DNA from: Aquabacterium sp.
GTDB lineage: Bacteria; Pseudomonadota; Gammaproteobacteria; Burkholderiales; Burkholderiaceae_C
Reading direction: 5' to 3'
NCBI RefSeq assembly: GCF_014378415.1
Contig: NZ_JACMNS010000006.1
Span: 1-40,949 of the forward strand
DNA: 40,949 bases
In this document: positions 19,278 to 23,930 of the stretch, piece by piece
Layout of the letters: each line of letters opens with the position of its first letter
Position numbering within the stretch: the first letter of the stretch is position 1
Notes under the pieces: generated by a model
Databases searched by the model: none
What the model was told of the DNA's origin: nothing
The model's input: only the letters and a program-made list of their open reading frames with translations
Position numbers and translations under genes: made by a program

Positions 19278-19972
19278 ATGGCTGCTCCGTTTCACGGCAC
19301 GGCTTACGCGCACCTGAGTCGACCTGTCTCGTTAAACTTCGTCATCAAGGGTTTTGGACAGGTACTGGCTCGGTATCTGCAAGACAAGGAATCGGAACGG
19401 CTACGCCAGATCCGCCTTGCGGCCATCCTCATCCTTGCCTTGAACTGCGTGCTGCTGTTGGCTGACTGGTACATGGTGCCCGATCAGTTTCAAGTGGCGC
19501 TTGGCTTGCGCCTGCTGGTTCAAGCCCCACTGACCATCGTGGGTTTGCTGTGCCTCAAGGGTGCTCACCGATCCGTGCGCGAGTTGCTGGCCTTGGTATT
19601 GGGCTTGGTGACAGCGGGCATCACCTGCTATGTGTCTGTGACCAGCCAAGACCCGCTGGCGCCGGACTATCTGGTGGCCTTGTTCATGATCTTGCTGTTC
19701 AGCAGCTACCGCAGTGAGCACGAAGAACGCGCCAACTGGTTGATATCGCAGCATCAACAGCTTTAGCGCGAGGAGGTGGAGCACAGCAACCGACAACTGA
19801 ATCGCCTGTCGCGCTTCGATCCGCTGACCGACATGGCCAATCGACGGCACTTCGACGAATTTTTGCAGCAGGTCTGGTCACGTGCGCGGGCCGATGGTGA
19901 CGAAGTGGCCGCCGCACTCAAGGGCCATCTGCGTCAACCTGACGACCTGATCGCACGCTATGGGGGCGATCC
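19278..19972 (+). pseudogene. broken membrane diguanylate cyclase (GGDEF) gene
   Basis: The N-terminal part encodes four or five hydrophobic helices (LAAILILALNCVLLLADW, ALGLRLLVQAPLTIVGLL, ALVLGLVTAGITCYVSV, LVALFMILLFSSY), a membrane sensor module. A TAG at 19764-19766 breaks the frame. The same frame then continues with GGDEF-domain N-terminal sequence (LSRFDPLTDMANRRHFDEF). After ARADGDEVA about 35-40 residues are missing, and the text resumes with LKGHLRQPDDLIARYGGD in the same frame. Homology stops inside the GGDEF signature itself (GGD, then unrelated residues), where SDR sequence begins. The product cannot make c-di-GMP; a truncated membrane peptide could still be produced from 19278. 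Confidence 0.85.
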
Positions 19973-20550
19973 ACACCTACCTGTGCGATGTGAGCGACAA
20001 AGCCTCGGTGGTGGCCTTTGTGGCTTTGGTGTCCGCAGCCTTCCTTGACATCAAGTTGTTGGTCAGCAACGCGGGCCGATTGCGCGAGCTGGACTTCACG
20101 CAAGCCGATTTGTTGCAGCAGGATCTGACGCAAGAGATCCGCGCCAACCTGGAGGGCAGCATTCACATCACGGCAGGATTTTTGCCTGCCTTACGCGCAT
20201 CTACCCCATCTCGCATCATCATGGTGAGCTCGGGCTTTGGCTTGTTACCCGCCACGCGCGCACCGATTTACTCGGCGTCCAAGGCGGGCTTGCAAAGTTT
20301 CACCAAGGCGCTTCGGCGCCAACTGGACGGGCAGGGCATCACCATCACCGACGTGGCCTCGCCTTCGGTGGACACCCCCGCCACGGCACATTACCAAGCC
20401 AACAAGATCTCGCCGGAGCAGGTGGTGGCGTTGACCTTGGCCGCCGCCTGGCGGGGCCAAGCAGAGGTCTACCCGGGCATGGCGCGTTGGCTGCCTTTGA
20501 TGATGCGATTGGCGCCTGGTCTGATCGCGCGCATCGTGGCCAAAGGCTGA
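19960..20550 (+). pseudogene. short-chain dehydrogenase lacking its N-terminal NAD-binding motif
   Basis: This 196-residue frame starts at an ATG that is actually part of the GGDEF RYGGD codons. SDR homology begins at about residue 4 with CDVSDKASV, continuing through LVSNAGRLRELDF (NAG motif), the catalytic Ser in IIMVSSGFG, the YxxxK pair (YSASKAGLQSF) and a C-terminal tail typical of SDRs acting on hydrophobic substrates. The first 50 or so residues, including the TGxxxGxG cofactor loop, are missing. The downstream body is otherwise undamaged, consistent with one recent deletion that joined it to the GGDEF stump. Cofactor binding, and so activity, is very unlikely. Confidence 0.82.
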
Positions 20551-20699
20551 GTCAGCTTGTTGTTTGTCGTTAAATGGCAAGTCACCGGGTAAGTCCGCAC
20601 CCACAAAGCCAATGATTGGCCGCTTCAGCCCATGCGGCCATGGACCCATGGGCCTAGCATCTGGGCAACTCCAATCTGCCCGCGCACGCCAGGTCCACC

Positions 20700-21575
20700 A
20701 TGAACATCTATCGCCAATTTCTCTGTGCCTTGACGCTCGCCGCTTGTGCCCTGGTGGCCACGCAAGCGCAGGCCGCCGACCATGAACGCGGCCCAGACCC
20801 CACGGCTGCGCTGCTGAATGCGACAGGGCTTTATGCGGTAAGCGCCTTCAAGATCTCGAAGGCCGATGCCAAAAGCCACAACTATGGTGGCGCCACCGTG
20901 TACTACCCGAATGCACCAGGAGAAACCTTCGGCGTGGTGGCCATGACGCCCGGCTTCCTCGCCTTCCAGGCGGTCTATGAAACGCTGGTGAAGAAGGTGG
21001 CGTCTCACGGATTTGTGGTGATCAACCTGGACAGCGTGGCAAGCCTTGACCAGCCTGATACGCGCGCCGTTGCCGTGGCCGGCGCTTTGCAGCATGTGGT
21101 TGATCTTGCCCAGGTGGGGCAAGTGCCCTATGCCATCGTGACCGATGTGAGGCGCCGCGCCGTGATGGGCAACTCCATGGGGGGCGGGGCGGTGCTGAGC
21201 GCGGCGGTGGCCGACAACACGCTCAAGGCAGTTGTCGCCCTTCAACCCTGGCACACCACCAAGAGCTTTGCAGGCGACACGGTTCCGACGTTGATCGTGG
21301 CTTGTGAGAAAGACACCATCGCACCGAACAAGACGCACTCGGATCAGTTTTATGCCAGCTTGAATCCCTTGCTGCCACGCGCCGAAATCGAGGTCATAGG
21401 TGCCAGCCACTTGTGCTCCACCTTCCTCGCCAGCAAGGCGCAGTTGGCCACTGCGGGCAAGGCCTCGGTGGCCTGGCTCAAGCGCTTCCTGGACGACGAC
21501 ATGCGTTACGACGCCATGGTCAAGGGGGGCATCAACGAAGGTGAGTTCAGCCGCTTCGTGGTCGAAGGGTTCTAA
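20700..21575 (+). CDS. secreted PETase-like polyester hydrolase (alpha/beta hydrolase)
   Basis: This 291-residue serine hydrolase is similar to Ideonella sakaiensis PETase along most of its length: RGPDPTAALLNA, TVYYP, ASHGFVVINLDS, LDQP, MGGG, VPTLIVACEKDTIAP, VAWLKRFLDDDMRY. The triad is Ser159 (GNSMGGG), Asp205 and His237 (GASHLC). Cys202 and Cys239 match the PETase-type disulfide beside the active site (C203-C239). Met160 and Trp184 match M161 and W185. Departures are Phe86 for Y87, Asn158 for W159, Leu238 for S238, and the cutinase-like pair His213/Phe217 where PETase has S214/I218. The C-terminal disulfide of PETase is absent. A signal peptide ends near AQA-A (residues 24-26); LAAC at 13-16 could also be read as a lipobox. 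PET activity is not implied by sequence alone. Confidence 0.9.
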   Translation: MNIYRQFLCALTLAACALVATQAQAADHERGPDPTAALLNATGLYAVSAFKISKADAKSHNYGGATVYYPNAPGETFGVVAMTPGFLAFQAVYETLVKKVASHGFVVINLDSVASLDQPDTRAVAVAGALQHVVDLAQVGQVPYAIVTDVRRRAVMGNSMGGGAVLSAAVADNTLKAVVALQPWHTTKSFAGDTVPTLIVACEKDTIAPNKTHSDQFYASLNPLLPRAEIEVIGASHLCSTFLASKAQLATAGKASVAWLKRFLDDDMRYDAMVKGGINEGEFSRFVVEGF

Positions 21576-21684: not shown

Positions 21685-22908
21685 ATGAATCGAACCGTGA
21701 ACCGCCTGACCACCATCGCCGGCCTCGCCTGCGCTGGTGCCTTGTCCATGACGACGCTTGTCCAGGCCCAACAGGTCTATCCCACAGTCGACGCCAAACT
21801 CAAGCCCACCGCCGACGCCTTCTACACCTCGCCCACCAGCGGCGAGCTGGCCGCCGAGGTCCCCGGCAACGTGCTGCGCTACCGCGCACTGCCAGCCGCT
21901 TCGCTGGGCACCAGCCTCAAAGAAGGCTGGCAGGTGATGTACCGCTCGACGAACACCAAGAACCAGCCCGTGGCCATGGTCACGACCGTTCTGATCCCCA
22001 AGGCTGCCCCTGCAACCGGTCGCAAGCTGCTGTCTTACCAATCCTTCTACGACAGCCTCACGCTGGACTGCTCACCTTCTGGTCAGGCCACGTCCAACAC
22101 GCTGCTGGAAAAGACTTTCTTCCAATCGGCGCTGAACAAGGGTTACATCGTGACCATGGCCGACTATGAAGGCCTGGAATCACAATGGATCGTCGCCAAG
22201 AACAGCGGCCAGGGCGTGCTCGACGGCATCCGCGCCACACTGAGGTTCAGCAACAGCGGTCTGAATGCATTGACGCCCGTGGGCATGTTGGGCTACTCCG
22301 GCGGCGGCTTTGCCACGGCCTGGGCCGCTGAGCTGGCGGCGGGCTACGCGCCTGAGCTGAAGATCATCGGCGCTGCGCAAGGCGGCTTGCCCGTCAACCC
22401 CATCAATGTGGCCAAGAAGGTCGATGGCGGTTTCTGGGCGGGTGCCTACCTGGGTGCGGTGGTGGGCTTGTCGCGCGCTTATCCCGAGCTCAAGGTCGAG
22501 GACTACGCCACGCCCGAAGGCATTGTGGCCATCAAGGACATCGGCACACGCTGCCTGACAGGTTCGCCCAATCTGCTGACGGCCTATGCCTACAAGAAGG
22601 GCTCTGACCTGTTGAAGGATCCCAACTTCCTGAACCTGCCCGAGATGCAAGCCATCAACCGCGAAAACACCATGGGCCAGAACACGCCCAAGATCCCGCT
22701 CCAAATCTTTCAAAGCATTGGTGATCAAGTGATGCCCATCGCTGACGTGGACAGCCTGGCGGCCTACTACTGCGCCAACAACGCCACGCTGGAATACAAG
22801 CCAGTCGCCGGCACAGACCACGTTCTGGGCGCCATGGGCTTGAGTGGTGGTTTGACCTACCTGCTGAACCGTTTCGACGGCAAGGTGGCGCCGAACAACT
22901 GCAAGTAA
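21685..22908 (+). CDS. secreted lipase/esterase of the secretory lipase (LIP) family
   Basis: This 407-residue exported hydrolase has a Sec signal peptide (hydrophobic IAGLACAGALSMTTLVQA, cleavage near VQA-Q, residue 28). The mature protein follows the secretory-lipase pattern: an N-terminal lid-like region, the nucleophile elbow GYSGGG (Ser205), acid Asp347 in SIGDQVMP and His379 in GTDHVLG. Four or more Cys residues allow disulfides. A good ribosome binding site (AAGGA) precedes the ATG. It follows the PETase-like gene after a hairpin. Likely substrates are lipid or polyester esters; the family also contains carboxylesterases of unknown specificity. Confidence 0.87.
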   Translation: MNRTVNRLTTIAGLACAGALSMTTLVQAQQVYPTVDAKLKPTADAFYTSPTSGELAAEVPGNVLRYRALPAASLGTSLKEGWQVMYRSTNTKNQPVAMVTTVLIPKAAPATGRKLLSYQSFYDSLTLDCSPSGQATSNTLLEKTFFQSALNKGYIVTMADYEGLESQWIVAKNSGQGVLDGIRATLRFSNSGLNALTPVGMLGYSGGGFATAWAAELAAGYAPELKIIGAAQGGLPVNPINVAKKVDGGFWAGAYLGAVVGLSRAYPELKVEDYATPEGIVAIKDIGTRCLTGSPNLLTAYAYKKGSDLLKDPNFLNLPEMQAINRENTMGQNTPKIPLQIFQSIGDQVMPIADVDSLAAYYCANNATLEYKPVAGTDHVLGAMGLSGGLTYLLNRFDGKVAPNNCK

Positions 22909-22932
22909 GGTTGAAGCGAAACATGTGTCAAA

Positions 22933-22959
22933 CTTCCTGAAACCCCAAGTTTCAGGAGG
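22933..22959 (+). promoter_or_regulatory. hairpin that would mask the ribosome binding site of the GFA gene
   Basis: CTTCCTGAAAC (22933-22943) pairs with GTTTCAGGAGG (22949-22959), 11 bp with one G-T wobble and a 5-base loop. The 3' arm contains the whole Shine-Dalgarno sequence AGGAGG (22954-22959), which is 6 bases from the GFA start codon. In RNA the fold would block ribosome access. It could also slow transcription leaving the lipase gene, although no T-run follows. Confidence 0.55.
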
Positions 22960-22965
22960 GCGGTC

Positions 22966-23376
22966 ATGCACCGTGGCAGCTGCCTCTGCGGAGGCGTTAC
23001 CTTCACCGTGTCCGGCGATCTGCCGCCGATCCAGGTCTGCCACTGCGGCCAATGCCGCCGTGCGCAGGGCACGCCTTTCGTCACCAACATCCCGTTGGAC
23101 GAATCGCAGGTGGATTGGCTTTCTGGCATCAGCCTGATCCAGCGGTACGAGTCATCACCTGGCAAGTACCGCTGCTTTTGCAAGACCTGCGGCTCGCCCT
23201 TGTTCAGCCAGCGCAGCTCACTGCCGGGTGTGTTGCGCCTGCGGGTGGGCACGCTTCAAGGGCATGTCAAATCCAAAGTTGGCATCCACATTCACGATGC
23301 ATCCAGGGCCAATTGGTGGACGCCACAAGATGACGCCCACGCGCCCAGGCATGACGAGAATGGCCCAGCCGCATGA
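22966..23376 (+). CDS. GFA-family (CENP-V/GFA domain) zinc protein
   Basis: This 136-residue protein has the GFA fold's Zn-binding Cys pattern: SCLCGGVTF near the start, CHCGQCRRAQG around residue 25 and CFCKTCGSPLF near residue 70. The family is named for glutathione-dependent formaldehyde-activating enzyme, but most bacterial members have no proven reaction. The C-terminus (DASRANWW) is also typical of the family. The gene has a strong ribosome binding site that lies inside a predicted hairpin. It may be read through from the lipase gene 57 bp upstream; a functional link to the esterases is not evident. Confidence 0.88.
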   Translation: MHRGSCLCGGVTFTVSGDLPPIQVCHCGQCRRAQGTPFVTNIPLDESQVDWLSGISLIQRYESSPGKYRCFCKTCGSPLFSQRSSLPGVLRLRVGTLQGHVKSKVGIHIHDASRANWWTPQDDAHAPRHDENGPAA

Positions 23377-23399
23377 AATATCGCTTGGCCCCGGATCCT

Positions 23400-23930
23400 C
23401 CAACATGATCCGGCCGTCTACCACCTAGGCATCCGCCAGTTGCCTGGCCATGATCCGCCACCTCGCGCCCATTCACGATGGTCCATGCTGTCGTCTGGCC
23501 ATGGCACATCAGCAGCGAGGTCACCGGGTCGTGTACGGCGCTACTGGCCATGCCCAAGGTGCGCAGGATGTGGTTTCGCGCTCGACCAGGTGGTCGGGTG
23601 GCAGACCGCCAGCGCTCTCGCCCACGCTCATGCTGCCCCGGCTGGCCATGAAGCGGATGCCGATCTCTTGCGCGGCGGCGATGCTGTCGTCCAGCCTGAC
23701 GCCGTTGGGGTAGAGCGTACGCAGCCAGCCAAACAGCTCGGCGTTCTGCGCGGCGGGGATGGCCCGCGTCAGGCTTTGGACCATGTGGTGGGGCGGGTTC
23801 ACCAAGCCTGGGATGACGATGTGGCCACGTGCGTCGATGGTCTGGGTGGCCTGGGCGAGCAATTCGGGCGGAAGGTCGGCCGTGGGGCCGGCGGCCACGA
23901 TCTCGCTGCCTTTGAGCAGCACGGCGTCAG
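23400..23930 (-). pseudogene. relic of an 8-oxoguanine-deaminase-like amidohydrolase
   Basis: Three separated pieces of one amidohydrolase follow xdhC. Piece 1 (about 23930-23710) has DAVLLKGSEIVAAGPTADLP and GHIVIPGLVN with the metal-site HH pair, but lacks the first 25 or so residues. Piece 2 (about 23710-23575), in the same frame, has PNGVRLDDSIAAAQEIGIRF and RGSMSVGESAGGLPPDHLVE; some 30 residues are missing at the LYP join. Piece 3 (about 23560-23400), in another frame, is the C-terminal tail (HDPVTSLLMCHGQTTAW, IVNGREVADHGQ); the catalytic centre between pieces 2 and 3 is gone. The family deaminates 8-oxoguanine to urate, and related members act on s-triazines. Its place after xdhC fits a former purine gene. 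Confidence 0.85.

Follow-up and report, generated by a model that had tools for sequence, protein, structure and literature searches.

The window, that is, the whole 40,949-nucleotide stretch of Aquabacterium DNA analysed here, carries a PETase-like gene (20700..21575, + strand) whose product is for the most part a typical member of its family, belongs to an Aquabacterium-only branch, fits no named type and has an unusual residue before its nucleophile. The assignment of this 291-residue protein (the query) to the PETase/cutinase-like serine ester hydrolases is near certain. Judged from its sequence, what is distinctive in it is Asn158, an active-site cysteine pair without the C-terminal pair, and a set of substitutions at the second substrate site. 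The reading frame has no internal stops, and on translation the frame and every residue number of the preliminary description proved correct (F86, N158, S159, M160, W184, C202, D205, H213, F217, H237, L238 and C239). The host genome is 3.83 Mb in 211 contigs and 92.5% complete.

Membership of the polyesterase family, as had been proposed, is borne out by a profile match, an aligned S159/D205/H237 triad and a predicted alpha/beta-hydrolase fold. The PF12740 'PETase' profile matches residues 23-281 with 236.7 bits (3.9e-70; cut-off 28), a resemblance far beyond chance. The NCBIfam model for the BHET hydrolase BdeA (NF051441) gives the query 221.1 bits, under its cut-off of 520, and identity with the BdeA equivalog was therefore rejected. 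A phmmer search against solved structures ranks PHL7 first, followed by other PET hydrolases and cutinases. Likewise, the AlphaFold2 model (pLDDT 91.6, pTM 0.88) has target-normalised Foldseek TM scores of 0.94 to PHL7 (7nei), 0.91 to IsPETase (6eqd) and 0.90 to TfCut (4cg1), and its structure alignment with 6eqd has an rmsd of 1.7 over 266 columns at 38% identity. The IsPETase reference sequence used here is identical to PDB chain 6qgc over 290/290 residues.

The protein begins with a probable Sec signal peptide, read by eye, comprising residues 1-25 with AQA before A26 (20700..20774, +); the predicted model has pLDDT below 50 at residues 1-3 and 5-24. By analogy with its homologues the hydrolase is probably secreted. 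Its only cysteines besides the active-site pair are residues 9 and 16, both in the signal region; residues 13-16 read LAAC, or LSAC in its two nearest relatives, and resemble a lipobox, so that a lipoprotein is possible. The remaining features, all on the + strand, were placed by alignment with IsPETase or read from the sequence. Phe86 (20955..20957), at the oxyanion/clamp position, falls on Y87; Asn158 (21171..21173, codon AAC) falls on W159 and precedes the nucleophile Ser159 (21174..21176) in the motif GNSMGGG. Trp184 (21249..21251) is the mobile Trp of subsite I, and beside it His213 to Phe217 (21336..21350) take the place of S214/I218. Cys202 (21303..21305) and Cys239 fall on C203 and C239, Asp205 (21312..21314) and His237 complete the triad, and Leu238 falls on S238, with His237, Leu238 and Cys239 contiguous at 21408..21416. 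The extended loop region (STFLASKAQLATAGK, 21417..21461) was recognised by comparison of loop length: H237 through WLKR spans 26 residues in the query, whereas IsPETase has 24 and both LCC and PHL7 have 21. The tail (21510..21572) has no Cys and ends in SRFxVxGF, the positions of which are invariant in 10/10 subfamily members.

The preliminary description had taken the PETase-type disulfide together with a cutinase-type Trp pocket for a mixture of two active sites. Residues were counted in a 93-row alignment, 92 rows of which have the five required positions (one contig-edge fragment among the 92). The combination turned out to be the common state, found in 19 of the 29 double-Cys homologues outside the subfamily, the others having FY (4), SI (3), HM (2) or HI (1); it is therefore not to be read as a hybrid. 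Within the subfamily, His/Phe occurs in 9/10 members and GY in one. Ser/Ile is confined to 3/93 rows, which are IsPETase and its near-copies L148 and L158. A published account agrees: in the accessible part of PMC10080609, His/Phe is described as strictly conserved in PET hydrolases except IsPETase, and BurPL has it together with the active-site disulfide. Two further residues had been singled out, of which the positions stand and the specialness does not: Phe occupies position 86 in 71/92 rows and Leu occupies position 238 in 24/92, and PHL7 has both equivalents.

Cys202 and Cys239 do lie, by alignment, at the type II disulfide position, and both are present at the aligned positions in 10/10 subfamily members; a C202-C239 bond in the query may be presumed from its homologues. 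Across the 92 rows, 39 have both cysteines, 47 have neither, six have C239 only and none has C202 only. The six C239-only rows form a related group in which position 202 is Asp and the loop contains another Cys, which a rewired bond would fit. Because the data hold only three independent pairs, the co-occurrence of the two cysteines is not significant (sign test, p 0.25-0.5). The C-terminal disulfide is indeed lacking, as the tail of the query has no Cys pair. This bond is given for IsPETase, BurPL, TfCut and LCC in the accessible part of PMC10080609, and one disulfide is marked as common to all six compared enzymes in the available portion of Joo et al. An active-site pair without the C-terminal pair occurs in 15 of the 39 double-Cys rows, all inside the 28-row clade that encloses the subfamily.

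Other Aquabacterium paralogues vary at the same sites. For example, group B (L002, L015, L018, L035, L036 and L037) has Asp at 202, retains Cys239 and has a new Cys nine residues past it (HLCGIQISAxKC), making a rewired disulfide possible; L002 is encoded in the window's own genome. In group C (L014, L016, L017 and L034), the nucleophile motif is GHSAGGG, both active-site cysteines are present, and the aromatic clamp is lost because Ala replaces the mobile Trp.

Asn158 had been called distinctive, and the wider sampling agrees. It occurs in 7/92 rows, all in this subfamily, and requires one change on the tree; likewise, among 87 proteins from the best 80 of 150 relatives' loci, the six with Asn before the nucleophile all belong to the subfamily. 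The three other subfamily members have His158, with codons CAC/CAT versus AAC/AAT, a single-base difference. The Asn158 clade also shares residues that are rare elsewhere, among them F89, V92, V97, A164, Q182, F242 and L243, and several of its specific residues map onto subsite II of IsPETase or next to it in the alignment. Searches of the open PMC literature found nothing on W159N with PETase or on the GNSMGGG motif, which does not imply their absence from print.

The subfamily comprises the query and nine sequences, 58-89% identical, from 9/42 genus genomes (its own included), while PETase-family matches, many of them divergent paralogues, occur in 28/42 Aquabacterium genomes. In both trees the 10-member subfamily is supported at 100/99 and its seven Asn158 members at 100/100; the enclosing 28-row clade consists of Aquabacterium rows only and has support of 100/98 in the first tree and 100/99 in the second. 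The trees draw on 55 distinct genus proteins, apart from the partial L005 and L023 and from L027, L028 and L053, which have no Ser motif, and on the named loci (the 80 best out of 150 relatives, with 87 proteins); 18 rows from 13 of these loci entered the first tree, and the structure alignment covers 44/80. The second tree has 20 added rows, two of which are contig-edge fragments of genes already in. Neither tree includes PET12, Dh5-7, the Acidovorax depolymerase or any characterised type IIa enzyme. Constrained trees joining the subfamily to type IIb rows (p-AU 0.00025) or to type I rows (p-AU 0.00010) were rejected; these groups were defined once the tree was known and come from our own sample, which has no characterised type IIa enzymes. 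Hence, the query, previously suggested to be an intermediate, is placed in a derived Aquabacterium-only clade apart from the sampled type I and IIb enzymes, and is a derived branch as far as present sampling goes. For the family and class searches, 399 and 369 genomes respectively were sampled out of larger sets, with at most six candidates scored per listed genome; in the former, E values of 1e-60 or better arose only in G000 and G009, both Aquabacterium, whereas the remotest member of the subfamily scores 7.6e-95. A plasmid search returned five records, all below 60% identity to the query.

Two observations concern other proteins of the genus. L003, encoded in the query's own genome (G000:C86), has Ser238, both Cys pairs and His/Phe, and its best solved matches are 7dzt and 7cwq (BurPL); its features bring it closer to type IIb than those of the query do, but it has His before Ser, and the tree places it in the Aquabacterium clade. 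L027, L028 and L053 are PETase-like regions in open frames of 534, 534 and 451 aa with the motifs GHGTG, GHGAG or GQGAG in place of a Ser-containing one, and are possible pseudoenzyme domains.

Directly after the PETase-like gene lies a secretory lipase gene (21685..22908, +; profile match to PF03583, LIP), which is about 91% identical and likewise adjacent in the two closest relatives; tblastn did not find it in the seven remaining subfamily loci that were fetched, each 16-19 kb long. Upstream of 2/3 His158 members there is an alpha/beta hydrolase gene, directly adjacent in L058 and about 1 kb away in L061, where an overlapping predicted ORF stands in between. The lipase aside, the window's neighbours do not recur beside other subfamily members in the fetched loci, and so hint only weakly at lipid or polyester use. 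The pair stands within a purine-breakdown setting (12103-35913) with urate oxidase, xanthine dehydrogenase subunits and XdhC, as well as an amidohydrolase, an ABC transporter ATPase and a PnrA-like (Bmp) binding protein.

The surroundings of the gene differ from those in the related genome G031. In the window the PETase-like gene directly follows part of a short-chain dehydrogenase gene; in G031 the corresponding stretches are separated by about 8 kb (L054:458-8491), encoding two beta-lactamase-fold proteins, an amidohydrolase, TetR, PhyH, a strictosidine-synthase-like protein and further products. On the window side the two matches share 7 bases (20553-20559), and the difference would be a deletion in the window, an insertion in G031 or a misassembly. 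Positions 19776-20550 hold overlapping fragments, namely a 90 aa ORF with the beginning of a GGDEF domain, and a dehydrogenase without its N-terminal part. The DNA at 22930-23923 resembles the relative's amidohydrolase gene (L054:11383-12780) in pieces only, so this gene looks broken in the window.

The PETase-like gene itself is maintained: compared with its two nearest relatives it gives dN/dS values of 0.10 and 0.16, purifying selection acts on the subfamily, and S159, M160, W184, C202, D205, H237 and C239 are invariant in 10/10 members. The same ratios and the confident model point to a working enzyme. By homology, the Ser159-His237-Asp205 triad would carry out the attack on the ester. The oxyanion hole would consist of the F86 and M160 backbone amides, F86 and W184 would clamp the acyl group, and H213/F217 would keep W184 in position. 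More speculatively, the second substrate site of the Asn158 clade may have been rebuilt towards a less polar groove at L or Q87, F89, V92, N158, Q182, L238, T241, F242 and L243, which would favour aliphatic polyesters or lipid-like esters and leave the enzyme weak on PET and BHET.

That the query prefers aliphatic polyesters or lipid-like esters in this way is about as likely as not. In the accessible part of the mutagenesis literature, Ala at W159 leaves IsPETase with 8% of its BHET activity and Ala at N241 with 18%; both positions are changed in the query, a point in favour of its having only weak IsPETase-like activity. Aliphatic chains would be well accommodated by a second site of lower polarity. 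Over nine positions picked after the differences had been seen, the query shares first place in hydropathy with five subfamily members, but over the 12 subsite II positions of Joo et al. it ranks 11th of 73 (14th for the 5-position core and 9th for the whole domain), which weakens the claim of an exceptionally non-polar subsite II, and Asn158 is itself polar. The weak-PET expectation is also countered by Dh5, which has Leu at the presumed position 238 and an extended loop and degrades PET powder well, according to the available part of PMC10547765. A capable PET hydrolase is thus an alternative, and an unlikely one. It would draw on the retained clamp, extended loop and active-site Cys pair, with F86, M160, W184 and I207 kept in the alignment and F86/L238 matching PHL7, the L210 of which is named in partially available text as the main contributor to high activity, with F63 in the clamp. 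Both PHL7 and Dh5, however, have His rather than Asn before Ser, and the crippling of IsPETase on BHET by W159A and N241A speaks against it. PF07519, the tannase family that includes MHETase, had no match in the query's own genome nor in any of 14 controls, so that this result is uninformative on absence.

Another possibility, somewhat doubtful, is an esterase acting in vivo on small esters or lipids, for which polyesters would be no more than side substrates. Hydrolase or lipase genes lie near at least 5/10 members (the neighbours of the rest were scanned in part), and the many divergent paralogues, with matches in 28 of the 42 genus genomes, would suit such a role; against it, the groove is, by homology, open as in polyesterases. 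The notion of an evolutionary intermediate mixing cutinase and PETase active sites has become very improbable: the residues are as described and the top phmmer match is a type I enzyme, but the pairing is widespread and the trees separate the query from the two reference groups sampled. That the gene is a decaying, functionless paralogue is scarcely credible, for the deletions or broken genes next door are outweighed by the intact triad and the low dN/dS.

The PET hydrolases known so far occupy only a narrow part of sequence space. A clade confined to one genus, with subgroups that differ in Cys layout and in the residues around the nucleophile, is a natural test set for identifying the second-site residues that determine the choice of polyester. 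Together with its sister groups in Aquabacterium, the subfamily might, as a tentative reading, constitute a further structural class of polyesterases specialised on an unnamed natural or synthetic polyester, in which the active-site disulfide is kept or rewired, the C-terminal one is lost, and Asn precedes the nucleophile in one clade. A caution for similar annotations is that a disulfide plus His/Phe is not evidence of a hybrid.

Compared with the named types, the query fits none. Full assignment to type II fails, since the extended loop is present but the C-terminal disulfide, which belongs to the definition in the accessible part of Joo (2018), is missing. Leu238 stands where type IIa has Phe or Tyr in partially available descriptions, and type IIb was rejected because the query has Leu238, Asn158, Thr241 and Phe242, whereas that type has Ser238 together with conserved residues in subsite II and the loop. 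Type I does not suit a protein with the Cys pair, the extended loop and Asn rather than His before Ser. Type III, represented by HaloPETase1, has a GHSQG box and no aromatic clamp in the available parts of PMC12442448 and PMC13396203, as against GNSMG and F86/W184 here. Among individual enzymes, IsPETase (type IIb) shares the fold, triad, active-site Cys pair and the Met and Trp of subsite I, and differs in S214/I218, W159, S238 and the C-terminal disulfide. PHL7 (type I), among the best structural matches, has the clamp Phe, Leu at 238 and His/Phe, but lacks the active-site Cys pair and extended loop and has His before Ser. The type IIb enzymes BurPL (7cwq) and RgPETase (which we take 7dzv to be) resemble the query in the active-site Cys pair, His/Phe and extended loop, unlike it having Trp before Ser, Ser238 and a C-terminal Cys pair. 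Dh5 (MBI3384080.1), from Aquabacterium sp. and thus of the query's genus, also has an extended loop; in the accessible part of PMC10547765 its authors place it outside types I/IIa/IIb and report degradation of PCL and PET powder. L040 (G019) has the same five subsite II residues as are listed for Dh5 in that part (T, A, H, L, M), and it differs from the query in lying outside the 28-row clade, with His before Ser, both Cys pairs and about 40% identity.
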